In this document: positions 7,363 through 50,057 of the stretch, one piece after another | Layout: each line of letters begins with the position of its first letter | Position numbering within the stretch: the stretch's first letter is position 1 | Virus record (IMG/VR): IMGVR_UViG_3300027522_000002 | Coordinates: 1 to 53,808 of that record | Source of the DNA: a virus | Length of the DNA: 53,808 nt | Reading direction: 5' to 3' (one strand) | Notes under the pieces: generated by a model | What the model was told of the DNA's origin: nothing | The model's input: only the letters and a program-made list of their open reading frames with translations | Databases searched by the model: none | Translations under genes and position numbers: made by a program

Positions 7363-8828
7363 TAGTAATACTCCCGTTTACGAGGAACAAAGTTTTCTTC
7401 CCCATCGTCCTCTCCGTTCAACGAGATAAACCCGCCTTGTCGAAAACGCATCAGTGCTAAAGTCATACTATCACAAAAGTCATCGTTGTCACCATTAGGA
7501 AATGAAACAACCTCTTCGATAACTTCATCCGCAAATTTCTTGTCGTGTGGGGCCCACACCATTCCAGATTCAAACATGGGGGCCACCATGTGCATTCGGG
7601 TAACCTTATCGTTTCCTTTGCCCGGAGAAAACCCTAAAGCTGGAATACCTTTTAGCCGAAGTTCTTGGATCAAAGGAGTACCTGTAGCTTTGGCCTCGAT
7701 AAGAACCATATCAGGCTCCCAATACTCGTATTCCTTAAACGCCTGCTCTTTTAACTCAGGGAAATTCCACCTTCCGCGCTGGGCATCAAGTAAAATAATA
7801 TGGTCCGGACCACCCTCCTCGGGTTTAAACACACCCCAAGTAGTAATCGCAGAATAATCCGCCGTTTCTTTCTTGGAAAACGCCGTGTCGTAAGACTGAA
7901 GAATGTAGTCTAGCCGAGGAACCGTCTCTTCCTCCCACCGTTTCCACCACTCGGTCTTAATAATCGCGGATGCGGAACCTGTTGGGTTCTGCTGCCACTG
8001 AGCGTTCCATTTTCCAACAGGCAACGAAGCTTTAATCGACAGCAGAGCGTCTTTTGCCCAGAACTCAGGCCACAACGGCTTGTCACTAGGCATAATCGCA
8101 GGAAATTCCACAACCTCCCACTGGTCAGACATCACATCGCTGCCCTGTTGGGCCAACAAACGGCCCGTCAAATCCTTTTTACCCCACCGAGTCATAACAA
8201 TTATGATGGCACCGCCCGGTTGAAGACGCTGGCGAGGACCAGAAGTGTACCACTCGTAGGCATTATCAAACGCAGATGCACTTAGGGCGTCTTGCTCCGA
8301 ATGAGGGTCATCAATGACAAGTAAATCCGCGCCACGGCCTGTGATAGCCGCTCCCACACCCGCCGCAAAGTACTCTGCACCCAAGTCAGTGCCCCAAGTA
8401 CCCGCTCCTTTATTGTCTTCTTTAAGGTTTGTGTTCGGAAATATAGTTTTGTACTCTGGATCATCAATTAAATCCCTTACTTTACGGCCAAAACGCACAG
8501 CCAACTCTGTGTTGTGAGTGGCTTGAATGATTTTTAACTTAGGGTTTCTACCTAGAAACCAAGCAGGCATCAAGTAAGACGCAAACTCGGACTTAGAATG
8601 ACGAGGCGGCATGTTTATAATCAAACGTTTGAGCTCTCCTCGCGCAACACGTTCAAGTTTTTCCGCAATAACTCGGTGATGCCGACCCTCGATGAAGTTA
8701 TCGTACACATGGTGGACAAAAGGCATGAAGTTCTCATGCGCTTTCTCCCTTAAATCCATGCGTTTCTTGGCCTCAGTTAAGGCCAAGATCTCCTTTAGAG
8801 CGTCCTCTGGTAGTGCCTGTAGGTTCAT
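7362..8828 (-). CDS. terL: terminase large subunit
   Basis: A 488-residue DNA-packaging motor. The N-terminal ATPase has a variant Walker A PPRHSKSE at 74-81 and Walker B LLVIDDP at 169-175; the MTRWG motif at 212-216 fits the coupling motif. The C-terminal RNase H-like nuclease shows its acidic residues at D314 (SYDTA), E378 (LIEAKATG) and D450/D453 (DDFCDS). It begins inside the stop of the 1,419-residue gene (ATGA) and is coupled to the portal gene. The small subunit is encoded about 9 kb away. Confidence 0.95.
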   Translation of the reverse strand: MNLQALPEDALKEILALTEAKKRMDLREKAHENFMPFVHHVYDNFIEGRHHRVIAEKLERVARGELKRLIINMPPRHSKSEFASYLMPAWFLGRNPKLKIIQATHNTELAVRFGRKVRDLIDDPEYKTIFPNTNLKEDNKGAGTWGTDLGAEYFAAGVGAAITGRGADLLVIDDPHSEQDALSASAFDNAYEWYTSGPRQRLQPGGAIIIVMTRWGKKDLTGRLLAQQGSDVMSDQWEVVEFPAIMPSDKPLWPEFWAKDALLSIKASLPVGKWNAQWQQNPTGSASAIIKTEWWKRWEEETVPRLDYILQSYDTAFSKKETADYSAITTWGVFKPEEGGPDHIILLDAQRGRWNFPELKEQAFKEYEYWEPDMVLIEAKATGTPLIQELRLKGIPALGFSPGKGNDKVTRMHMVAPMFESGMVWAPHDKKFADEVIEEVVSFPNGDNDDFCDSMTLALMRFRQGGFISLNGEDDGEENFVPRKREYY

Positions 8829-11800
8829 GCTGCAGGTGTCGCTGCGGTGTAAGTCCTTCTATCGATGACTTTCCTGCGTTGGCCGGGGCCAGTGTCCCCT
8901 GGACGTATAGTTTGTCCGGTGTAGGGTCGAGTACTTGCTCCTGCCCGTAGACGATATGACTCCTCAATCTTAACACAAGTAGGTCCGTTTGGCCCATCCA
9001 CAAGCTCGTAACCCTCTGGGCATTCCATTGTAGGATCACCCGCCACATTCGTGCCAAGAACAGGAGCAACGCCGTCACCGCCATCCGATGGAAGACCAAC
9101 CGTTACGCCGTCATCCGTTGTAGTGAATGTTGGGATGCTAGGATCGTCACCGCCATCGTCGCCAAACACCTCTGGAGGAACGTATGCGGTATTAAACGGA
9201 ACAAACGGCCTGTTTGTTTTTTTCTCAACAGGGACTTCAACTGCAACAGGGACTTCCTGATTAGTTAGCAATGGTGGGTTCTCAACTACCGTCTTCATAG
9301 TTGACGCTGGCTCCTCCTCAGTAATCACTACCTCTTCCGTAGGCACCGCCACGTCTACGGTTTTAGCAACAGTGGGTAACTGATCTTCCACAATGACCTC
9401 TGTTCCCGTTTGGTTAGAAGCGTCGAGCATATCTGCTTTAGCTTCGGACAAAGCCACATCGGTTCCCGTCTCCGGAACATCAACTTCCACAAAATCTGTT
9501 TGCAGGTCGTTGTCTACTACCGTGCCTTCATCAATCTGGCTCTTCCCGTCTCCAACAATGCCTCTAAGATACTTAGCCGAGTCCGACAAAGCTGCATCGT
9601 AGGAAGGCGTTGCTTGAATTTCACTAACCTCTGGAGCATCCACCTCAACAAACGTGTCATCAATCGGAGTCTCAAGGTCCAAAGCTAGTTGCTCTTCGAC
9701 AGGTACTTCAACTGCGAACTGATCCGCAACGTCCGTAATCGAAGGCTGAACACCAAGCATGTCAGAACGGCGAGTATCAATCGGCTGATCCGTAGTACTC
9801 ACCATGGGCGCAGTCATGTCCGCCGGAGCAACCATCTTTGGGGTGTCGTACATAGCCGCAAGGTCTGCAATCGAAGGTTTAAGAGGAGCAACGTTGTTAA
9901 CAGTTACAGAGCCGTCCGCTTCCGGTGCACTAAGTTTTGGAGCAACAGCGTTGTCATACGCTGCATTCCCCGCTGCTTCCGCAGCCATCGCATCCCCAGT
10001 TTCCGTTAATGTCTGATTGTATGCCGCCTCTTGGGCCGCTATCGCGTCATAGTTCTCTTGAGCTTGAAGATTAGAAACCTCGGTTGTAACACTCGGAGCC
10101 TCTGTTCCCGTGATGATGTCCTCCGCAACGTTAGATCCGCGTGACCCATCGTCAGGTCCTTTTCTTTCCGCTGCCATGGGCGCAAGTTCAATGCCGCTCA
10201 TGGACGAAAGAAGCTGGGCGTCTGCGGTTGCTTTAGCATTTTCCGCTGCTGAAATTCTATCTACTGCCTGTCGTTTAGCCGTGGCAGTGTTGATGTCCTC
10301 CTCCAAGAATAAATCCAGCGCAGTCTGACCGTCCAGACTTTCGTTGGCGTTGGCCTGATCGATAACGTCCGTTGCCATTTCTTCTGACAACATAGCGTTG
10401 ATCTCGGCAAGAGTCTCCGCGTTAATGCTGCCTGTCGTTGCAACCTCGTCACTGGCGATTAAACCAAGCATATCCGCTTTGTTACGCTCTGCTTCTTTGG
10501 ACACCTTGGTGGCAACCTCAATCGCATCGGTCATAGGGAGCTCTAGTTTCGAGGCCAACTCAGCAATGTTACCTGTTGTGGCAGACTGCTCAAACGCTGC
10601 ATCGTCCAAAATCATCTCAGATAGCAACGCTGCGCTGTCATCCTTAGACTTCTGCAATAACTCCTGCTCCATCAAGGTCGTTTGGTCCGCAACCTGCGTG
10701 TTGTTGTCCGTCCGAGGGGTTACAATAGGGCCTGATTGGAACTTAGTAGGATCGTTAATAGTGCCATCAACCGTGTTGTTATATGCAGTATCAACCGTTG
10801 AACTCGCAAGCTGACCAGCAGTAGGACTCAACAAAGGATCTAATACCTGACCGTACATCGTTCCGGGCTCTTGGTTGGTCAAAGGACCACCTTCTGTTAC
10901 AGTCCCAGATCCGTCTCTCCTCGCGCCCGAAGTATTTGCACCCGAAGCAAGAGTCCCCCCAAATGCACCAAGAGCAGCACCTGTGATTGCTCCTTCCTTA
11001 TCAATATCGAGAGTAGGGACTATATTTTGTCCGCCACCCGCGAGAGCAGAAGCAACAAGAGAGGGTTCTCCGACCCCTTCACTCAAACCTCCTTCTAACA
11101 TAGTAGCACCAAGTTTTGATTTAAATCCCGGTAAGAATTTGCTGCCGAGGCCATAGGTTAAACCTTCAACTACACCCATACCAGCCGCGTAAGGCGTGAT
11201 CGTTTGAACATAATCAGTTACCAACTGACGCTGTTGATCTTTACTAATAGGACCATATTCTCCTTTAGCGATCCTTGCGTCCATCCTGTTTTCAATTTCA
11301 GAAGTAAGTTCCCCTGTGGTCATCGTTGCACCAAGAGCCGCACCCGCAACAGGATTAGCCACCGAAGTTGCGACAATCCCCGCAACAGTAGGAGCACCAT
11401 ACACGATTTCCGAAAAGAGGGCCTCCATATCCGGACCAAGTTTCCCAGTTCCAAGTATATCTCTGTCTTTGGCGGCTTTAGCGCGTGTACCTGTAAGGTT
11501 GCCAAGAGTGCGGTCTTTCAATCGGCCAAGAGTGTCTGCAACTCCCCCGACCTTGTTAGCAAATTGGTTTTCCGTTCCCGCAACCATGCCCCGTCTGTTT
11601 GGATCCGCGCCCAACGCCTTGGCAAAGCCCATGTCAATCTCAGGAATAATATTCCCGCTAGAATCTAACTGATCAAGGCCAATCGATGAGTCGCCAAACT
11701 TGTACTGATCCGCCGGATCAAAGTACTTAATTCCCTTTTCAACACCACGTCCAATTAACTCGGCACCTTGCAGAAAACCCGCGCCTAATAATCCACCGTA

Positions 11801-13084
11801 CCCAGTGCCCTGATCGGCATCATTACGACCAAGAGGGAATGTAAGGTCCGGCATTGCTCTAGGGCCAAGTTGAGCGTTTGGATCAGTGTTAAATACTGAT
11901 GGAAACTCCGCTCCAGGGAACATGTCCCGATATGAAACAGGCTCCGGCGCGTTACTTGTCTCCGTGAAATCTGTTGCGTTGGGATTCTTTCCTTGTCTCT
12001 CCAACTCTGCCAACTCAAGCATGGTCAATGCATCGCTGGCAACACCACTATTTTGAGCCATCTGAACGCCGCCAGCGTCAAGAGCAGCTAACTTAGCCTC
12101 AAACTCCTCGGGAGTGGAAGTCGCGGTCCGGAAATCATAGCCCCCCCTATCAGGAACAGGAGAAGGGATGTTATTACCGGGAGCAAGGCGATCTCCAATA
12201 CCAAAGTCTAATTGAGTAATGCCCCCTGATGTAGGGGTGTAATTTACCGCTGAACGATCCCCAAGGGCCTCAACAACGTTGCCGCGACCACCCCCCACAG
12301 AGGGAACGCGATTTGGATCCAAGAAAGGATCTCCGCCGCCCAATGTAGGAGTGTAATCAACAGGACGAGTTCCAACGTCAATAGGATCAAATAAGTTGGC
12401 CTGCGGATCACCCGTCATAGTAGGTGCCGCCGCAGGACGAAGCTGCGGACGTAAACTTGTAGCAGGAGCCGCAGGAGCAACAGGAGCGTAGTCCGTAGTA
12501 TAACTCTTGCCCTGATAATCAAACGTCTTCCCTGGGCCACCAGACTTACGAGCCGCCGAAAACGCATCGCCAAACGAACCAGAGCTGTCTGAACCGCCAG
12601 TGAACCCCGTGATCTGAGGAGTGTAGTTGTTATTTCCCTGCTGTGCCGCGTAGGAAGGACTACTGCCAAAACTGCCCGTTTTTAAAAAATTACCAATGCT
12701 GCCGTCAGTAGAAGAAGACTTAGAACCCGCGTAACGACTACCCTCGTTTAACGAAATCTGCGCGATTCTGTTCTTAGTTTTGTTGTCCGAACCACCAGCC
12801 GAAGTAACATCCTGCCCCAAACCAGCGTTCTTGTTTGCCCCAGTGTACGTCCGAGTAAGCATCTCACTGCCGTTCTCGTTCGTGCCGTGCGACTTCCACT
12901 CAAACCCGTCACCAGCATACTGACCAGTTGACGAAACAGAACCAACGTTCTTTGTCGGAGATCCTTTGCTTAAATTACCAGTAGACTTCTTCTGTTTCTT
13001 ATCATCCCCGCCGCCGCCAGAACCGCCGCCATCAGAATCAAACACCGGAGTCTTGTGGCGCAATGGCCCAAATAAATTGATCAT
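8825..13084 (-). CDS. large internal virion protein (putative)
   Basis: A 1,419-residue protein of low complexity. The N-terminus is Gly/Ser/Lys-rich and disordered-looking up to about 430. A middle part (about 550-700) has hydrophobic Ala/Gly-rich helices that could enter a membrane. A long acidic Ala/Thr-rich stretch runs to about 1,330. The end carries CPEGYELVDGPNGPTC. No enzyme motif was recognised. It is placed after the transglycosylase-like and HlyC-like genes and before terL. Size, composition and neighbours suggest a protein ejected with the DNA, as with the T7 internal core proteins. Confidence 0.7.
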   Translation of the reverse strand: MINLFGPLRHKTPVFDSDGGGSGGGGDDKKQKKSTGNLSKGSPTKNVGSVSSTGQYAGDGFEWKSHGTNENGSEMLTRTYTGANKNAGLGQDVTSAGGSDNKTKNRIAQISLNEGSRYAGSKSSSTDGSIGNFLKTGSFGSSPSYAAQQGNNNYTPQITGFTGGSDSSGSFGDAFSAARKSGGPGKTFDYQGKSYTTDYAPVAPAAPATSLRPQLRPAAAPTMTGDPQANLFDPIDVGTRPVDYTPTLGGGDPFLDPNRVPSVGGGRGNVVEALGDRSAVNYTPTSGGITQLDFGIGDRLAPGNNIPSPVPDRGGYDFRTATSTPEEFEAKLAALDAGGVQMAQNSGVASDALTMLELAELERQGKNPNATDFTETSNAPEPVSYRDMFPGAEFPSVFNTDPNAQLGPRAMPDLTFPLGRNDADQGTGYGGLLGAGFLQGAELIGRGVEKGIKYFDPADQYKFGDSSIGLDQLDSSGNIIPEIDMGFAKALGADPNRRGMVAGTENQFANKVGGVADTLGRLKDRTLGNLTGTRAKAAKDRDILGTGKLGPDMEALFSEIVYGAPTVAGIVATSVANPVAGAALGATMTTGELTSEIENRMDARIAKGEYGPISKDQQRQLVTDYVQTITPYAAGMGVVEGLTYGLGSKFLPGFKSKLGATMLEGGLSEGVGEPSLVASALAGGGQNIVPTLDIDKEGAITGAALGAFGGTLASGANTSGARRDGSGTVTEGGPLTNQEPGTMYGQVLDPLLSPTAGQLASSTVDTAYNNTVDGTINDPTKFQSGPIVTPRTDNNTQVADQTTLMEQELLQKSKDDSAALLSEMILDDAAFEQSATTGNIAELASKLELPMTDAIEVATKVSKEAERNKADMLGLIASDEVATTGSINAETLAEINAMLSEEMATDVIDQANANESLDGQTALDLFLEEDINTATAKRQAVDRISAAENAKATADAQLLSSMSGIELAPMAAERKGPDDGSRGSNVAEDIITGTEAPSVTTEVSNLQAQENYDAIAAQEAAYNQTLTETGDAMAAEAAGNAAYDNAVAPKLSAPEADGSVTVNNVAPLKPSIADLAAMYDTPKMVAPADMTAPMVSTTDQPIDTRRSDMLGVQPSITDVADQFAVEVPVEEQLALDLETPIDDTFVEVDAPEVSEIQATPSYDAALSDSAKYLRGIVGDGKSQIDEGTVVDNDLQTDFVEVDVPETGTDVALSEAKADMLDASNQTGTEVIVEDQLPTVAKTVDVAVPTEEVVITEEEPASTMKTVVENPPLLTNQEVPVAVEVPVEKKTNRPFVPFNTAYVPPEVFGDDGGDDPSIPTFTTTDDGVTVGLPSDGGDGVAPVLGTNVAGDPTMECPEGYELVDGPNGPTCVKIEESYRLRAGASTRPYTGQTIRPGDTGPGQRRKVIDRRTYTAATPAA

Positions 13085-32778: not shown

Positions 32779-32974
32779 CGTAATCCGCCCATGGTGTTGG
32801 TTGCATCCTCTCGACGGCTTCGAGCTCACGCAAGCGGACTTAGTGGAGCAGCAATGGGATACTCTTTTGCACGACGAAGAACAAGCTATCTGGGATCAAT
32901 ACTACAAGCTTGAGGCTCAGAAAGAACTGATCCGACAACAACTGCAGAAGATTACTGATTCAAGAAAGAGTTAG
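32765..32974 (+). CDS. small Trp-rich protein of unknown function
   Basis: A 69-residue protein starting MEKDNVIRPWCWLHPLDG, Trp-rich at first, then a charged helix (WDQYYKLEAQKELIRQQL). It overlaps the gene before by 14 bases and is the last plus-strand gene. Its 3' end overlaps the 3' end of the convergent 1,376-residue gene by 23 bases. No known family was recognised. Confidence 0.65.
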   Translation: MEKDNVIRPWCWLHPLDGFELTQADLVEQQWDTLLHDEEQAIWDQYYKLEAQKELIRQQLQKITDSRKS

Positions 32975-35900
32975 CTGCTCGTTCCGCTGGAGTTCCTCCC
33001 AACAACTCAGGGTTCACGGGCCCTGGGGCTCGGGCTTGAATGATTGGTGAAGCCGCCGGAGTCAAACTCCCCTCCTGTTGAAGGTACGGGTTGACAGGGC
33101 TTGGTGCCTGCGGAGCAAGATCTAAGTATGGATTTGACCTTGTCGGTGGAGCAGGCGGATTAATCTCAACGGGTTTCATCTGCCGATCATCTTCTACCTG
33201 CGGATCCAACGGGCGTCCAAAGTAATTATCCTGCACGTTTTGAATAGCTGCCCTTGGCAAACTATCCAGGGCATCAACTCTCAATAGTTTTTTGTACACG
33301 TCTGGTGTGATTTTAAAGGGCTCGAACTCTCCGCGCATAATTCCTTTGATCCCACCGATGTTGTTCTCTTTAAGAGTCCGGCGAATTTCAGACTCGCTGA
33401 CACCCATGGTCCGAAGGTCTTGGATCATGCGGTAGTAGCCACGGTCATTGCGATACTTGGCGGCGTTAGCGTCTTCATAGCCCTTCAACAGTTGGTCCGG
33501 AGTAACGCCGAAGTCATCTGTCAGGCTGTTGAACATGCGCTTTGAGTCCGTCTGTCCACGTTGAAATCCGTATGCTGCAAACCGAAGGCCCTGCTTTGGG
33601 TCAAACGTTTGTTCCGAAACACCTGTACTAAGTCGAGCTAATTCTTGTTTCCAAGTCCGCTCACGGCCCATCTTATCTTGAGAGGCGATGGCATCGATAC
33701 CAAGTCCGTCACCCGCAACGCCGCGCAAGAAACGGCTGGCTTCGATTTTACCACCGGATATATCCGCCGCCGCCAGAACGTTTGGAATCATTGTGTTTGC
33801 CACATGCCCTGCCATCTTAAACAGCTTTGTGGCACCATCGTCCTTTGGATTATAAACTTGCGCCCCAGTTGATGTGCGTCCGCCACGGTATGTGATATCT
33901 AAAAGAGCATCTGTTAGCATGGCTTCGTCTAAGAACGGAGCAAACGCTTCGCCCAAGGTGCCAAATCCTACGTCCACAATAAATTGATCGAGGTCCTTTC
34001 CCTCTGCCCTAGCGGCATCAAATTCTGTAATGGCACGGTTGGCAAACCGAGACAGCACATCGTAAGGGTTCGAGGTACTGTAGTTGATGTATTTAATTTC
34101 CCCGTCTTTTGTTTTTCCCGTAGGAATCAAGGTTGCGCCCTTCATCCAAGGAGCAGCAAAGGATCTCTTAAGGGCTTCCATTTCTTCTCGAGTCACGTCT
34201 GAAATTGCATACGCGCCTTCCAGTACCGCAGCGGGAACAATCGCCGTTGTAGTAGCAAAGCCCAACAAACGCTGTTTGCCTCGTCTTTGAACGGCCTCAA
34301 TCGGAGAGGCCATATCGTCCAGACCCTGCCTCACAATGTTAAAACTTGTACGATACATCTCTGCAGGGAACGTGATGAAGTTACCAAACGGAAGCTTACG
34401 CCCCAACTTAATGAACTCAGACGCACCCTTGTTGTAGTTTGGCACAGTGTCCCGCACGATCTGTGACGCTCGGGTCTTGATAAGATCATCAATGTCCGCC
34501 GTTCCAGACCGTATCAATTGTTTTGCTTCGATTGAAACATCGTCCATGTTCTTGGTCAGGTACTTAATCTTGTCAGCCTCTGACGCACCGTCCAGCATGT
34601 GCCGTATCTTGGCTTGCTCCGAATGGTACGAGAAGTATTTCCAAATATCATCCGACCCTTGGTAGGCTTTCTCAAAACCCGCCGCAACTTTGCCGACACT
34701 TTTTGCCAGCTTACTGTCTACGGGCTTGCCTCTGACAGCCTCAATGAAGTTCTTTGGCCGAGGTTCTGCAGCGTTAGAGTACCCAATACCTTTGCTTAAC
34801 TGGTCTTGGATCTCCCTTAACTCTGCATTTGTTCCCAAGACTCCACGCCGTTGTGCGTCAGCTAGGTCATCAAATACAGCTTCACTGCCTTTGTTAAAGA
34901 TATCCGATGTGACCGCAGTCACAGCATCTTTGAAGTTGCTGCCTCTGCCAAGGCCCGGCCAATTACCGTTAGCCGTTGCAAAAGCAACAGCCGTTGTAAA
35001 GTTTCGTACCTGAGTGATGGGAGACAGAACAGTCTTGGCGTATTGAGATAAACCTTTACCCTTCAACGCTACACCTAAACCACCTCGCAAGAGTTCAACC
35101 CCAAAGTTTGACTCGCCCATAATTTGGTTGGTCAAATCTTTGTAAATTTGTTTTGGAACGTAGTGTCCGTCCAAGCTGCCCCAGCCTGTTCGCCCAATAA
35201 GCTTTTCTACTTGATCTGCGTCCTTGCCTACGGCTCCGACAACACTTGCTGCGCCGTCATCTCCGCCCAATTTAACATAGCCACGGCGAACTAATTCTTT
35301 TTTCTGTGCCGCACTAAGGTCCGCTCCGTCACGAAAGAACTTTCCAATGCCTGTGTTTGTTTTAGCCATCTTAGCGACAGTGCCGAAGTAATCATCAATG
35401 GCGTTGAACTGAGCAAGGTCGGCAACAGTGCCAAGGACAGCGGCCCGTGGATCATCGATCTCTCCAAGAAGAGCGCGAAGCTGTGGGGCTATCTTTTCCC
35501 TGGTAATGAACATGCCTGTGTCCAAACGGTCCTTCGCCACAAAGCCACCCTTTAGCTTTTCGTTTTTCTTCAAGGCGTATTTGTTCAAGAACCCTTCCCG
35601 AGCCATCTTAACTACAGTGTCGGTGGGACTGCCTCGTACTATAATTTTCTGTTTGTCCCCCGTCCCCGAACGAGCCAGACCATTTGATCGCAGGAACTGA
35701 TCGTTGAATACGTTATCAACGTCCGCTCGAGCCAGAGCGGAAAGCTCTTTCCCGATTAAGTTTTTGTTTCTCCGGAAGAAACCGTCTGCTACTCTAAGGG
35801 TCTTCTCATCAGGGACATACTTCGCATCCTCAAAGATTTTATAACGCCGACGAACGTAGCTTCCCAGCCCGTCTTGAATAACGTCCTTAATCATACGACC

Positions 35901-37082
35901 ATCTTTGGTCATAAAATTGTTATCACTTAGGAACTTACTGTCCAAAACACCTTGGCTCAGTGTGTCCACATGCTGGCGAATCTCAACTGCATCCCGTCTG
36001 ATCTCTCTTGGGAGAGCTCTTAATGCCGTAGCCTTGTCCGCAGGGTCCGCGATGCGTAGGAAATCCAACACTTTGTTAAGGGCGTTTGCTTTCTCTAACG
36101 AACCACCGTCCGGCAAAGACTTCATAGTTTTGTCCAGAGACTTCTCTATCTTGTTCATCATCCGCCCAGCTTTATCCAAGTCAGGCTTGATCTGTCCGTC
36201 CAGCAACAAACGTTTGTCTGCAATTTGTTCCGGAGTAGCACCGCGATATCTAGTAAAGACAACCGCGTCCGCAATACCTTTTTGGAACCCAGACAGGTCA
36301 TCTCCCGGTGCGTTCAATGTGCGTTTGTCCACCAGATCATCGAAATACTTACCCGCTGCGTCAATCTTTTTCTTGGTTCCCGCTGCAATATCCTTAGAAA
36401 CCTTTGCATCACCAATAGTTTTACCCGCCGCAGACAACCCACCTTGGATTGCCCCGCCAACAACACCAGCTTCTGCCAAGACCTTTAGGCGGTTTCCTGC
36501 CCGAGCAAGAGATTTCTCAGTGCCTTCCAGACCGATGAGATCTGTAGTTTGAGTAGGTCCTGCCTCGACCCAATCACCAATGGTGGTTGAGTTATCACCG
36601 GACACGGCCATTTCTATGCCAGCAACTGCGCCAAGTTCCCTCAGTGCAAGGTTAGTGCGCTCAGTCTTAGAAAGCTTGCCTGTCTTACCAGCAAGCTGAC
36701 GAGCTTTCATAAATCCTTTGCCGACTTTGCCAGCAATACCAACACCTGGAACAACAAACTGTGTTATTACTTCTGCACCAACACCAGCAATACCCTCGGG
36801 ATCAAAACCCGCCAAGTCTCGTAGGTACTCAGCCTTTTCGGTTACACTGTCTGTGTAGTTAGTGCCTGCAACAAGGTCCACGCCAAGTGTTCCAAGGCCA
36901 ATCACACCTTCACCGATGCCGATCAACCCAGAGCCAACGCCCTCGAACACTTCACGGCCTATGGAACCTTCCATGAACTGTTCTCTATTACGCCCAGTTT
37001 CTTCTTCCGGCTGTAGATAAGGGTTAGAATTTTCAACAGGGGCTTGGGGTTTGTCCAAGTCTAGGTAAGGATTAGTAGCCAT
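32952..37082 (-). CDS. large internal virion protein (putative)
   Basis: A 1,376-residue protein, basic and helical over most of its length. A hydrophobic Gly/Ala-rich region at about 45-130 could enter membranes. The ends carry the same motif pair: NPYLDL at 4-9 and NPYLQ at 20-24, and again NPYLDL at 1317-1322 and NPYLQ at 1331-1335, with NPELL at 1357. No enzyme motif was seen. It is the last late gene of its operon, with three other virion proteins before it. Role in DNA ejection is inferred from size and position. Confidence 0.75.
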   Translation of the reverse strand: MATNPYLDLDKPQAPVENSNPYLQPEEETGRNREQFMEGSIGREVFEGVGSGLIGIGEGVIGLGTLGVDLVAGTNYTDSVTEKAEYLRDLAGFDPEGIAGVGAEVITQFVVPGVGIAGKVGKGFMKARQLAGKTGKLSKTERTNLALRELGAVAGIEMAVSGDNSTTIGDWVEAGPTQTTDLIGLEGTEKSLARAGNRLKVLAEAGVVGGAIQGGLSAAGKTIGDAKVSKDIAAGTKKKIDAAGKYFDDLVDKRTLNAPGDDLSGFQKGIADAVVFTRYRGATPEQIADKRLLLDGQIKPDLDKAGRMMNKIEKSLDKTMKSLPDGGSLEKANALNKVLDFLRIADPADKATALRALPREIRRDAVEIRQHVDTLSQGVLDSKFLSDNNFMTKDGRMIKDVIQDGLGSYVRRRYKIFEDAKYVPDEKTLRVADGFFRRNKNLIGKELSALARADVDNVFNDQFLRSNGLARSGTGDKQKIIVRGSPTDTVVKMAREGFLNKYALKKNEKLKGGFVAKDRLDTGMFITREKIAPQLRALLGEIDDPRAAVLGTVADLAQFNAIDDYFGTVAKMAKTNTGIGKFFRDGADLSAAQKKELVRRGYVKLGGDDGAASVVGAVGKDADQVEKLIGRTGWGSLDGHYVPKQIYKDLTNQIMGESNFGVELLRGGLGVALKGKGLSQYAKTVLSPITQVRNFTTAVAFATANGNWPGLGRGSNFKDAVTAVTSDIFNKGSEAVFDDLADAQRRGVLGTNAELREIQDQLSKGIGYSNAAEPRPKNFIEAVRGKPVDSKLAKSVGKVAAGFEKAYQGSDDIWKYFSYHSEQAKIRHMLDGASEADKIKYLTKNMDDVSIEAKQLIRSGTADIDDLIKTRASQIVRDTVPNYNKGASEFIKLGRKLPFGNFITFPAEMYRTSFNIVRQGLDDMASPIEAVQRRGKQRLLGFATTTAIVPAAVLEGAYAISDVTREEMEALKRSFAAPWMKGATLIPTGKTKDGEIKYINYSTSNPYDVLSRFANRAITEFDAARAEGKDLDQFIVDVGFGTLGEAFAPFLDEAMLTDALLDITYRGGRTSTGAQVYNPKDDGATKLFKMAGHVANTMIPNVLAAADISGGKIEASRFLRGVAGDGLGIDAIASQDKMGRERTWKQELARLSTGVSEQTFDPKQGLRFAAYGFQRGQTDSKRMFNSLTDDFGVTPDQLLKGYEDANAAKYRNDRGYYRMIQDLRTMGVSESEIRRTLKENNIGGIKGIMRGEFEPFKITPDVYKKLLRVDALDSLPRAAIQNVQDNYFGRPLDPQVEDDRQMKPVEINPPAPPTRSNPYLDLAPQAPSPVNPYLQQEGSLTPAASPIIQARAPGPVNPELLGGTPAERAANSFLNQ

Positions 37083-45364: not shown

Positions 45365-45877
45365 CTATGCCGCAATGTTCGTCCAAGACGGTGACTGCGA
45401 GGGAGTAATCCCTGAGAAGTTTGGGGTCAGGGCGGGTATAATCTGCCCCCACGGTTGTTGCAGGATGCCAATCTCGCCAGTTGCTGACAACCCGGTTACA
45501 TGTACATTAGCGGTTCCAACGATGGCTGTCGATGCACTATTCACCGATGCCGTCATTGCCACCATTGTATTGGTGGTAAAGAAACTTCCGAGCGTTGCTG
45601 TTCCTACAACTCCGGTAACAAAAGCATTATCGCCTCTTGTTGTAGAAATTGCTCCAATGGAAGTGGTGGCACTAACACCCATGTTTGTGGTAAAGGTGTC
45701 ACCTACCGCTCCAGTACCTGCAACCCCTGTAACAGATACTACAGCATCGCCTTCTTGAACCGCCTGTCCAACACTACCTGTAGCAGTAAGCGCAAAAGCA
45801 GGACTTGTGTTCCAAGTGCTTGTATTCCAAGCTCTTGCTGAACTGTTCCAGCCTACAAACGCTACAGTAGAGGACAT
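45365..45877 (-). CDS. beta-repeat tail-region protein
   Basis: A 170-residue protein starting MSSTVAFVGWNSSARAWNTS. It is Thr/Val/Gly-rich with about six short repeats of the form G(T/V)A-x-x-G-x-x-(F/V), so a solenoid of beta strands is likely. The ATG overlaps the previous stop (TAATG). Minor tail or fibre part by position. Confidence 0.65.
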   Translation of the reverse strand: MSSTVAFVGWNSSARAWNTSTWNTSPAFALTATGSVGQAVQEGDAVVSVTGVAGTGAVGDTFTTNMGVSATTSIGAISTTRGDNAFVTGVVGTATLGSFFTTNTMVAMTASVNSASTAIVGTANVHVTGLSATGEIGILQQPWGQIIPALTPNFSGITPSQSPSWTNIAA

Positions 45878-46622: not shown

Positions 46623-47480
46623 TTACGATTTGTTTCGGATAAGTTGACCTGTGCGGTACTCATCCGTTACCTCTAGGGCCTCACCTAAGTTTTTCAAACG
46701 AGATACCGACTCCCCAAATTTTTGCGTATACAACTGCATTAGAGTGGGATCTCCTTTCATGTAAGTGTAAGCCTCCGTTAAAGACCCGTACAGCATCGCT
46801 AATTCTGCGTTCTCACTAAGCCATGTTAATGTTGTATCCGCACCAATAGCCGAAATTACGCCCGTAGCCCCACTCGGACTAGCTGTAATTGTCTCACCAA
46901 CAACATAGTTGCTGCTAGGAATTACCACCACCAAGGAGGTGCCCGAAGGAACCAAATCTACGCCACTGCTTTCCCCGCTGGTGCCCCCAGTAATAGTGTC
47001 GCTTGTGGTAAACGTTCCAACAACACTTGTTAAGGTTAGCGTGTAGCTGCTTTGAGTTAGACTTTCGGGCCTGTAGAAATAATGAAGTTCTGCACTATAA
47101 CTACTATTAGGTGTAGGTCCCAAGATGAAGTTGTTTAGATCAAACATCCCATAGTATTTAGGAGCTCCAGTTGTAGCCGAATTTGGAGTGTACATCTGAA
47201 TAAACTCAGGGTCTTTGTATTCCACAAAAGATGTGTTGCTGTCGCTGTCTGTAAAAGACAGGGCAAACGGAGCTAAAAAATCACTCGGAACAGCTAAGTA
47301 TTTGTTGTTCTGAGTCATGGCTCCTGCGGAGTTCTTTCGAAACAAACTTAGTTGAACGTTTTTAAGAATGCGTTCCTCGGTAAGACGAATAAACAAAGGC
47401 AGGTTTCTTACAAAAGAAGTTTCATTGTTCTCAGTGTAATCTTCTATTGCCGTTTTCAACTGTGTGTATGTAAAACTCAT
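46623..47480 (-). CDS. head-tail adaptor (SU10-type)
   Basis: A 285-residue protein. The start FTYTQLKTAIEDYTENNETSF then FIRLTEERILKNV, and the end NAELAMLYGSLTEAYTYMKGD, are typical of the SU10-like adaptor family of podoviruses. A beta-rich insert lies at about 150-215. Adaptors bridge portal and tail nozzle. Its start overlaps the stop of the cupredoxin-like gene (ATGA). Confidence 0.75.
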   Translation of the reverse strand: MSFTYTQLKTAIEDYTENNETSFVRNLPLFIRLTEERILKNVQLSLFRKNSAGAMTQNNKYLAVPSDFLAPFALSFTDSDSNTSFVEYKDPEFIQMYTPNSATTGAPKYYGMFDLNNFILGPTPNSSYSAELHYFYRPESLTQSSYTLTLTSVVGTFTTSDTITGGTSGESSGVDLVPSGTSLVVVIPSSNYVVGETITASPSGATGVISAIGADTTLTWLSENAELAMLYGSLTEAYTYMKGDPTLMQLYTQKFGESVSRLKNLGEALEVTDEYRTGQLIRNKS

Positions 47481-48301
47481 GTGTTAATCTGACCTCCCAT
47501 ACCGCTATGATTTGTGCAATAGTAGTACAGGGTAGGAGCCCCAGAAGCAACTTCAATTTGACTATATGCTCCAGCACTCCCTGGCGTTCCGTTAATGGTT
47601 ACGCCTGTGGTGTACGCACTTCCACCCCCCCACGTTCCGTTAGAGGTAATAGAAAATCTTAAAGGGTGGTTGGAATTAGAAGAATTTGATTGATCGAATC
47701 TATAGATGCTACCTTCTGACAAGTTAAGGGTAGCTGCCCTTGAGCCATCAATATAATAATAGTTAGCTCCGGAATAAGAGGCAACTGTTACCGCGTAAGT
47801 AGCCGTAATGTCCGATGTTGTTGTAGTCGACACCGCGCCAACAGACGATGTTAAAGCCGCTAATGTAGGATATGCTTTGTTCTCTGCCTCTGGGGCTGTA
47901 GACGTTGCAGTACCAACAGACGATGTTAAAGCTACTAATGTAGGATATGCTTTGTTCGCTGATTCATCTGGGTTTATAACGCCAGTTACTGTTACTGTGC
48001 CTATCGCACCAACAGGTGCTAAATTACTCAAAGGTGTTATACCAGGGATACTATTAAACCCAACAGGATTAAAACCGTACTGTATGTTTCTTTGTTCCGC
48101 CAGATTATGTTCTGGACGGGGCCCTTTCAAAGCCTGTGGGTCAGGTCCAACTTTAGGAGCGGACAGTTGCGGTTGTTTTGGATCAAATTCGTCCGGCCCA
48201 ACTTTAGCTCCCGTCCATTCTACCATCATGTCACGAAGGCGGTATCGCCGCCCTGATCTATCAGATATCCCCCAAGCATGTTTTCCACTAGCGTATGTCA
48301 T
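47477..48301 (-). CDS. virion protein with cupredoxin-like C-terminal domain
   Basis: A 274-residue protein. Residues 1-80 (KHAWGISDRSGRRYRLRD, GPDEFDPKQPQL) are a block common in phage head-tail genes. Residues 116-130 and 141-155 are a near-perfect repeat (NKAYPTLxALTSSVG). Residues 165-274 are a beta domain ending YYYCTNHSGMGG: with His212, Cys262, His265 and Met268 it has the C-x2-H-x2-M order and spacing of type 1 copper sites such as amicyanin. Similar ends are seen in marine phage proteins. Copper binding is not shown. Confidence 0.75.
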   Translation of the reverse strand: MTYASGKHAWGISDRSGRRYRLRDMMVEWTGAKVGPDEFDPKQPQLSAPKVGPDPQALKGPRPEHNLAEQRNIQYGFNPVGFNSIPGITPLSNLAPVGAIGTVTVTGVINPDESANKAYPTLVALTSSVGTATSTAPEAENKAYPTLAALTSSVGAVSTTTTSDITATYAVTVASYSGANYYYIDGSRAATLNLSEGSIYRFDQSNSSNSNHPLRFSITSNGTWGGGSAYTTGVTINGTPGSAGAYSQIEVASGAPTLYYYCTNHSGMGGQINT

Positions 48302-48966
48302 TACACCCTCAAATAACTCAAGCTGGGTTGTAGCTTCAAAGGAGTTCGTCCGGAATCTTCGTCTGCAGCCCGTTGAAACTCTTCTTCGTAAACCGATTTT
48401 AACATCTGGATTCGGTCAGGTACTCGTTTCATGGCAAGATAATACGCCAAACCTGCCACCATGCAGGGGAAAAACCTAAACGGCATATCCGCAGTGTTTA
48501 CTAACGCACCAGCATCTTCAATTCTTTGGACGTAGTAGTAAATTATCTGGTCGGTGGAGTTGTCCGGAACAGACCACAAGTTTATAATTGGGTCAATTTG
48601 TCTATTAAGCCAGTACTGACTTGGTCTTCCTTGGGTAGTTTTATTCGGGAGATTAGCATAGTCCCCACGGCTGATGCGCTCTACCTCGTAATCAGTGTTG
48701 TTGCGACGAAGAACAACGTCTAACAAATCAACCACATCATCCGTCAAGGGTTCTTGCGCCTTACCCTGAGTTAAGTTGATTGTGCCTTGTCGAACAGTCC
48801 ACAAGTTTAAACCTCTGTTGGCCCACTCTGCAAACATAAGATTCAAAGATCTACGCGCTGTTTTAGCATCGTAGCCCGTGCGAACCTCAAGTCCACAACG
48901 CTCATAAGCTTCTTCGATGACTTCAGCAACGTCAAGGTTAAAGTCTCTTGTTCCAGATGTTGCCAT
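48301..48966 (-). CDS. head-tail connector (P22 gp4/T7 gp11-like)
   Basis: A 221-residue helical protein. FNLDVAEVIEEAYERCG, then TARRSLNLMFAEWANRGLNLW, and MVAGLAYYLAMKRVPDR near the end fit the first connector ring under the portal in short-tailed phages. It starts two bases after the 47-residue gene and is coupled by TAATG to the cupredoxin-like gene. A structural role at the neck is well supported by pattern and position. Confidence 0.75.
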   Translation of the reverse strand: MATSGTRDFNLDVAEVIEEAYERCGLEVRTGYDAKTARRSLNLMFAEWANRGLNLWTVRQGTINLTQGKAQEPLTDDVVDLLDVVLRRNNTDYEVERISRGDYANLPNKTTQGRPSQYWLNRQIDPIINLWSVPDNSTDQIIYYYVQRIEDAGALVNTADMPFRFFPCMVAGLAYYLAMKRVPDRIQMLKSVYEEEFQRAADEDSGRTPLKLQPSLSYLRV

Positions 48967-48968
48967 AA

Positions 48969-49112
48969 CTAAACTAACTTCGGTTGTTGATTAGTTCTAG
49001 TCATAACACAGCCACCTTTTTTGTAACCCATTTTAGCCACCGCCGCTGGGGCCACTTTTTTCAACTCTGTTATGCCCTTACCTTTGGGTCCGCTAGGTAT
49101 CGGTTTTTTCAT
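48969..49112 (-). CDS. 47-residue basic protein
   Basis: An open frame from ATG at 49112 to TAG at 48969. The product MKKPIPSGPKGKGITELKK, then VAPAAVAKMGYKKGGCVM, is of a type very common in marine phage head-tail regions (ends of the form KMGYKKGG). It overlaps the 232-residue gene by 20 bases and fills an otherwise empty gap. GAGG lies about 9 bases before the ATG. Confidence 0.7.
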   Translation of the reverse strand: MKKPIPSGPKGKGITELKKVAPAAVAKMGYKKGGCVMTRTNQQPKLV

Positions 49113-49791
49113 CTCCATCGTCCTCGTTATAAAGATTATCAAACACTCTATTCACATCCAGTGTATAGTCTAAATCACTTTTTGAATAGTGTATATGTTG
49201 GGATGGTCTGAAGTCTGGAGCACCCTCACCTAACGCAAACCAAGCAGGATGCGTCACACGCACTCGATTGTTAGGTAAAGCAACAATGTTGCCTGTCCAT
49301 TCTCCTGCGTCTAACAATTGCAAAACATGGCTTTGTTTATGCTGTGCAGGATCATCTGCTATTTCAGAGTCAGTGTAGTCAACCGTAAACAAATACTTTG
49401 CGGGAAAGAACTGACCATCAATCTTTGCCATCCAAGGACAAGGTGTAGCTCTGTCCAAAACGTATACTGCGTGGTGGTGCGAAGCACAGTCCCAAGGTTG
49501 AGCATCGTGTGTTGCCATTGGAGTAGGCCATTCCGATAACGGGATATCTGCGACCAACGCCGTAAGAGGCATCCGAGCCCACATTGCACCACCATGAACT
49601 GTGTCCTCTTCCTCGTCTTCGGCTTCGCAACCCGTAAAGATTACTTGAAAACTTAGGGACCTATTCGGCATACTTGTTACAGCTATGACCATCGCGTGTA
49701 AAAACTCTCCATGATATTTCTCATGGTTATGAGTGTACTCGCGACGAACCCAGCATTTAAAGTATGGTATGTTGCTTTGTAAATAAGACAT
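49093..49791 (-). CDS. conserved virion-region protein
   Basis: A 232-residue protein starting MSYLQSNIPYFKCWVRREYT. It is beta-rich with an acidic EAEDEEEDTVHGGAMWARMPL block and a SHHHAV His cluster. It looks like a conserved marine phage protein of unknown job. No catalytic motif could be fixed. It lies between small basic proteins and the connector genes. Confidence 0.7.
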   Translation of the reverse strand: MSYLQSNIPYFKCWVRREYTHNHEKYHGEFLHAMVIAVTSMPNRSLSFQVIFTGCEAEDEEEDTVHGGAMWARMPLTALVADIPLSEWPTPMATHDAQPWDCASHHHAVYVLDRATPCPWMAKIDGQFFPAKYLFTVDYTDSEIADDPAQHKQSHVLQLLDAGEWTGNIVALPNNRVRVTHPAWFALGEGAPDFRPSQHIHYSKSDLDYTLDVNRVFDNLYNEDDGDEKTDT

Positions 49792-49796
49792 CTACG

Positions 49797-50057
49797 CTAG
49801 AACACCCCCCTAAAACCAAATCCTTTGACTTGACCGCCAGCCCTCATGCCTTTGACTTGACCGCCAGCCCTCATGCCTTTGACTTTGCCACCAGCCTTCA
49901 TGCCTTTGACTTTACCACCAGCCTTCATACCTTTGACTTTGCCGCCAGCCTTCATGCCTTTGACTTTGCCGCCAGCTTTCATGCCTTTGACTTTTCCACC
50001 AGCTTTCATGCCTTTGACTTTGCCGCCAGCCTTGTAACCTTTTTTCTTCATTTTCAT
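49797..50057 (-). CDS. Lys/Gly-rich repeat protein (eight 9-residue repeats)
   Basis: An 86-residue protein made almost entirely of eight copies of KAGGKVKGM; the last two read RAGGQVKGM. The repeat unit is 27 bp. The net charge is very high. Small KAGG/KKGG proteins are typical of marine phage late regions. DNA compaction in the head or membrane or RNA contact is possible. The perfect repeats suggest copy-number change by recombination. Confidence 0.8.
   Translation of the reverse strand: MKMKKKGYKAGGKVKGMKAGGKVKGMKAGGKVKGMKAGGKVKGMKAGGKVKGMKAGGKVKGMRAGGQVKGMRAGGQVKGFGFRGVF

Follow-up and report, generated by a model that had tools for sequence, protein, structure and literature searches.

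Cyanophages carry the plastocyanin gene petE as an auxiliary metabolic gene, so that a cupredoxin from marine phages has already been described (PMC3037559, available portion of the text). That gene stands alone, is derived from the host and serves photosynthesis in the infected cell, whereas the domain described here appears to be part of a particle protein: it is fused to an ORF of the virion module that has an N-terminal domain of its own, and it does not share the stand-alone form of petE. Metal in phage tails has been discussed for marine phages in the case of iron (PMC11705849, available portion). The iron-binding HxH tail fibres, among them T4 gp37 and that of Alteromonas phage R22Y, resemble our case in having metal ligands in a phage tail protein and differ from it in fold and metal, the iron being held between paired histidines of the fibre (PMC11705849, same portion). 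A literature search, with most subscription papers outside its scope, returned no paper dealing with a cupredoxin domain as part of the phage particle, and in the accessible sections of two cyanophage cryo-EM papers copper is mentioned only for the sample grids (PMC10966104; PMC10575957).

The window, by which we mean the whole stretch of DNA that was analysed, is a viral record 53,808 bases in length and has matches to portal, large terminase, major head protein, DNA polymerase, primase and helicase. The gene of interest is a 274-aa ORF on the minus strand, the middle one of three (Table 1). In the Pfam search the ORF gave no PF24175 match at E up to 1, unlike both of its neighbours, and neither Pfam nor NCBIfam returned a family over cut-off for it; since the two neighbours match this SU10 adaptor family, we read the ORF as a probable neck gene. 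Relatives of its N-terminal part stand in a similar gene order in pelagiphage HTVC023P, Roseobacter phage CRP-901 and phage 023Pt_psg01. The neighbour gene in CRP-901 is annotated as 'tail adaptor' and also matches PF24175; where Pfam matched nothing, the kinship of the neighbours in these three phages with those of the window was judged by eye.

Table 1. Features of the presumed neck module and of its cupredoxin-like domain, in window positions
Feature	Position	Strand	Basis or remark
274-aa ORF with cupredoxin-like domain at C end	47477..48301	-	middle of presumed three-gene neck module; flanked by SU10_adaptor matches
Cupredoxin-like domain, residues 163-274	47480..47815	-	AlphaFold2 pLDDT 95-98; copper proteins matched in Foldseek and VIA
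His212 codon, putative copper ligand 1	47666..47668	-	ORF translation
Cys262 codon, putative ligand 2, sole Cys of the 274-aa protein	47516..47518	-	ORF translation
His265 codon, putative ligand 3	47507..47509	-	ORF translation
Met268 codon, putative axial ligand	47498..47500	-	ORF translation
N-terminal domain, about residues 1-58	48128..48301	-	phrog_28581 over 3-83; pLDDT 62-89 for residues 1-40
Linker, residues 59-161, mostly low confidence	47819..48127	-	pLDDT <50 for 59-84 and 91-161
Upstream neighbour, SU10-adaptor-like	48301..48966	-	PF24175 E 1.8e-10, 42 bits (cut-off 27)
Downstream neighbour, SU10-adaptor-like	46623..47480	-	PF24175 E 3.5e-17, 63.9 bits

Several features of the module and its surroundings deserve mention in their own right. 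Among the relatives of the N-terminal domain (L001-L080), 43 of 68 have both pairs of a zinc-ribbon-like CxxC...CxxC arrangement, and 19 of 68, the type to which the window ORF belongs, have SxxS and no second pair; this seems to be a second metal site, lost as a unit. The linker contains two copies of an internal repeat, NKAYPTL[VA]ALTSSVG. In the same region a 232-aa ORF (49093-49791, minus strand) matches phrog_3704 ('ferredoxin', E 4.5e-28) but nothing in Pfam at E up to 0.01; the 'ferredoxin' label seems doubtful. An 86-aa ORF (49797-50057, minus strand), very rich in lysine and glycine, is built of KAGGKVKGM repeats, and the ORF at 45365-45877 (minus strand) has VTGVAGTGAVG-like repeats in a style resembling the tail of the middle neck gene of CRP-901. 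Two long minus-strand ORFs, 8825-13084 (1419 aa) and 32952-37082 (1376 aa), matched nothing in PHROG or Pfam at E up to 0.01.

The first-pass annotation had seen, in the span 47477-47786, which is the final ~103 residues of the ORF, the ligand pattern of a blue copper protein. In the translated ORF His212, Cys262, His265 and Met268 do stand at those positions, in a protein with one Cys, four His and four Met. The C-x2-H-x2-M motif occurs in one of the 151 stop-to-stop frames of at least 90 codons in the window, namely this ORF, and 200,000 shuffles of the 274-aa protein reproduced it 34 times; the pattern is therefore no common accident, although its conservation, described below, argues this far more strongly. 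Amicyanin has its ligands at C92, H95 and M98, with 38 residues between the first His and the Cys. The proposed likeness to amicyanin in order and spacing thus stands for C-x2-H-x2-M and fails for the distance from His to Cys: in the window domain the first His lies 49 residues before the Cys, which is longer than in amicyanin and closer to plastocyanin. The residue after the first His also differs, being Pro in the window domain where classical cupredoxins have Asn; among the aligned sequences (alignment A4 for the cellular ones), Pro was found in 71 of 78 complete phage copies and Asn in all ten cellular cupredoxins. The replacement of His-Asn by His-Pro may matter.

The whole-protein AlphaFold2 model, built with 80 aligned sequences, comprises a small N-terminal domain, a linker of low confidence and a C-terminal part, residues 163-274, with pLDDT 95-98. 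When this model was compared with the PDB, copper proteins made up 48 of the 50 Foldseek matches listed, the other two being SO1698 of Shewanella, with modest E-values (best 1.3e-3, and 8.4e-4 for an earlier domain-only model). With the VIA aligner, all 50 matches listed were copper proteins, over about residues 163-274 of the model and with Z of 9.3 to 8.1, only just above the value of 8 below which Z can reflect merely a common arrangement. The best VIA match was 2dv6 (Z 9.3, rmsd 2.6 over 96 residues). The top solved structures, and the closest ones structurally, were the N-domain of Hyphomicrobium nitrite reductase (Z 9.3) and rusticyanin (Z 8.8), both from cellular copper proteins and about 15-18 percent identical in the region aligned, while in BFVD the best structural match was a virion protein of phage S-TIM5. 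The domain-only model, made from close relatives with a mediocre pLDDT of 75.7, had matched the same structural families before it was replaced. The beta domain and cupredoxin likeness proposed earlier are thus borne out by a confident model for which copper proteins come top in both aligners, and residues 163-274 are predicted to adopt cupredoxin topology. Membership of the multicopper oxidases or nitrite reductases does not follow, because those proteins have several cupredoxin domains and additional type 2/3 histidines, and the 274-aa ORF has one such domain and four His in all.

The relationship to copper proteins emerged at the sequence level from the family and its distant members and not from the window domain alone. 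The latter had no match to a Pfam copper family at E up to 1, and a search with PF00127 across the window record gave none; the window protein alone (P0001) retrieved a single, unrelated row from PDB sequences, and a profile of close relatives (A1) retrieved 17 rows with no cupredoxin among them and with weak matches to antibody chains. A wider family profile (A3), composed of 36 rows including distant phage relatives, 29 of them preselected for all four ligands, gave copper proteins in 32 of 38 rows, the best being nitrite reductase (E 0.0026) and plastocyanin (E 0.0051), and in its alignments with plastocyanin the His, Cys, His and Met were all in register. The distant relative L099, searched alone, retrieved only cupredoxins (18 of 18 rows, best E 0.018). 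The cut-off of PF00127, Copper-bind (21.2 bits), was exceeded by L098 (22.7), L099 (22.4) and the tail spike of P-SSM2 (23.3); four of the 36 members of A3 matched this family, two of them above the cut-off, and L261 stood exactly at the cut-off of SoxE, or sulfocyanin (21 vs 21 bits). As Pfam recognises a few distant members, database annotation may already link these to cupredoxins. Profile-profile comparison with ten cellular cupredoxins (A4) was weak, for A3 (hhalign probability 2.8, E 0.016) as for A1 (probability 0.4), yet the Cys-His-Met end was aligned.

Because PF00127 gave no match at E up to 1, we assign the window domain to the cupredoxin fold and not to that family, whose cut-off of 21.2 bits it does not reach and whose Asn after the first His it does not have. 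What it shares with the plastocyanin, azurin and amicyanin family is the predicted fold, the His...Cys-x2-His-x2-Met arrangement of amicyanin and a Tyr-x-Cys strand; it differs in lying within a virion ORF, in the Pro after the His and in the 49-residue stretch from His to Cys.

Conservation of the candidate ligands, proposed as a check on the first-pass reading, was examined in 301 distinct instances of the domain, taken from viral contigs and 12 phage regions with no selection for ligands. Leaving aside the 46 cut off by a locus end, all four ligands were present in 249 of 255 judgeable instances; among the six without the site, one keeps the first His and one is probably a false match. These figures are biased toward intact copies, as the scans that supplied most of the instances used short peptide patterns, one of which spans the Cys-His stretch. 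In the alignments A2 and A3, both thinned by identity, rows from L094 onward were admitted only with the four ligands, so that ligand invariance in the distant rows is there by construction.

A count over whole records is fairer, even though the profile that located the copies was built on intact ones: 25 of 27 phage records had the domain, in 63 copies, of which 42 were complete, 16 lacked the first His together with the triad and five had the first His only. Read by eye, each of the 21 incomplete copies keeps at most one of the four ligands. On a tree made without the ligand columns, at least five changes were needed for the triad and at least eight for the first His, and the ligand pattern was phylogenetically clustered; the 63 copies are mutually related, with independent pairs too few for a formal test of joint loss. 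The ligands are thus kept together or lost nearly together, as a metal site predicts, and the Met268 column, intact in 250 of 251 filled rows, is as strictly kept as those of Cys and His, a pattern more in keeping with copper than with zinc. At the DNA level, 73 distinct neck-type copies show only synonymous changes in their His and Cys codons (first His, CAT 57 and CAC 16; Cys, TGT 51 and TGC 22; second His, CAT 39 and CAC 34). The putative ligands His, Cys, His and Met, in type 1 order, can therefore be called conserved.

Departures from the common pattern were of several kinds. Three residues separate the second His from the Met in P-HM2 and MED4-213, both counted among the 42 complete copies, and in one contig, the loop-variant sequences being CTVHGIGM, CETHGATM and CYVHGIGM (L284, L332 and L261). 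Copies on contigs from bacterial MAGs were complete in 11 of 12 cases; these contigs (L290-L300) may be phage sequence binned with bacteria. In one of them, from a Poribacteria MAG (L300:2586-2882), Ser replaces the Cys ligand and His, His and Met are retained, making it a possible natural non-blue variant. The fold is kept in copies that have lost the site, namely that of cyanophage PSS2, the second copy of gp7 and a structural protein of T4-like cluster 345. The PSS2 copy (L086:2992-3330) is a stand-alone domain gene of 112 aa after the tape measure gene, has neither the His nor the Cys ligands and is annotated as a baseplate wedge subunit.

It had been stated earlier that similar ends occur in other marine phages, and this proved to be so on a large scale. 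Out of 50,697 phage records searched by tblastn, 274 have the domain at E up to 1e-5, and 337 when E may reach 0.01; almost all are phages of marine Synechococcus and Prochlorococcus, with a few of Pelagibacter and Methylophilales. The carriers include tail fibres, the tail spike of P-SSM2, the T4-like baseplate proteins gp9 and gp7 of S-CAM22, the former with the Pfam T4 gp9/10 N-domain, and the S-TIM5 virion structural protein, whose domain is 62.5 percent identical to that of the window; a phage genome may have up to five copies. In gp7 of S-CAM22 (L089:3300-6281) the cupredoxin-like copies adjoin a YHYH domain (PF14240, 59 bits). Within the neck genes the position also varies: the domain is at the N-terminus of the first neck gene in 023Pt_psg01 and at the C-terminus of the middle one in the window, while in HTVC023P and CRP-901 the N-domain of the middle gene is present and the cupredoxin-like domain is absent from the entire records. 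Judged from gene sequences, the domain moves among virion genes. The downstream neighbour in the window (46623-47480, minus strand) has an insert at residues 146-217 with a weak match to phrog_693 (E 0.0017), and in three of the 80 closest loci (L020, L026 and L030) an additional cupredoxin-like domain lies within the third neck gene, at about the site of this insert.

Four other explanations have to be weighed against these results. The pattern could have arisen by chance in an unrelated immunoglobulin-like beta-sandwich serving as a decoration domain, as the antibody-chain matches of profile A1 alone and one BFVD match named as immunoglobulin domain-containing would suggest. Copper proteins rank first in every structure search, the ligands are conserved and the shuffles seldom reproduce the motif; conservation and structure together argue strongly against a chance pattern, which we regard as very improbable. 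Less remote, though still unlikely, is that the fold is indeed cupredoxin-like and the four residues form a structural cluster without copper, held by zinc or by hydrogen bonds only. The Pro after the first His and the weak profile-profile score are what such a cluster would lead one to expect, but the ligands are lost together, and Met268 is conserved to the same degree as Cys and His, better suited to copper than to zinc.

Two further explanations accept copper and differ in what it would do. That the domain is a redox-active blue copper centre, exchanging electrons at the host surface or sensing redox state during adsorption or genome release, is in keeping with the intact type 1-like ligand set and with nearest solved matches that include the electron carriers rusticyanin, plastocyanin and amicyanin. 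We nonetheless hold it to be improbable, more so than the non-copper cluster, given that there is no known redox partner and no second copper site in a protein with four His, that the likely neck position is away from the host surface in the window phage, that His-Asn is missing and that site-less copies persist at gp7. Somewhat less doubtful, and about as unlikely as the cluster without copper, is a bait or scavenger in which copper bound to the virion docks on a metal-uptake or copper-handling protein of the host surface, in the manner of the iron Trojan Horse. The recurrence of the domain in tail fibres, spikes and gp9 suits such a role, and a similar action has been proposed for the iron of tail fibres (PMC11705849, available portion); here the carrier is a neck gene, however, and the iron precedent is itself a hypothesis.

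The reading that we prefer, and consider fairly probable, is that the C-terminal domain is a module of cupredoxin fold whose type 1-like His-Cys-His-Met site is intact, and that it serves marine phage particles as a mobile decoration. That the putative site would bind copper in vitro seems quite likely, indeed likelier than this reading as a whole. The domain would decorate the neck in the window phage and baseplate proteins, tail fibres and spikes in others, presumably on the particle surface, and its main role may be adhesive or structural rather than electron transfer. Copper would lock the ligand loop and the fold, stabilising them, and perhaps tune binding. As some lineages keep copies of the fold that have lost the site, the domain can be of use without metal, for instance in decorating the surface as a rigid unit. 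Our best guess is therefore that it acts at the surface or in adhesion, with copper stabilising the fold. It is a good deal less likely that virions carry working blue-copper centres in which the metal or a redox change aids attachment or the trigger of genome release, so that copper supply would affect infection in the surface ocean.

Cupredoxins have been known as proteins of cells and as metabolic genes of phages; here the predicted fold, with its ligand set, lies within proteins that make up the particles of common marine phages. Should the sites hold copper, these particles would count among the copper-binding constituents of sea water, and copper would join iron as a metal of phage tails. 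Even without copper, a fold can be named for a large group of proteins so far called 'hypothetical', 'virion structural' or 'tail fiber'.
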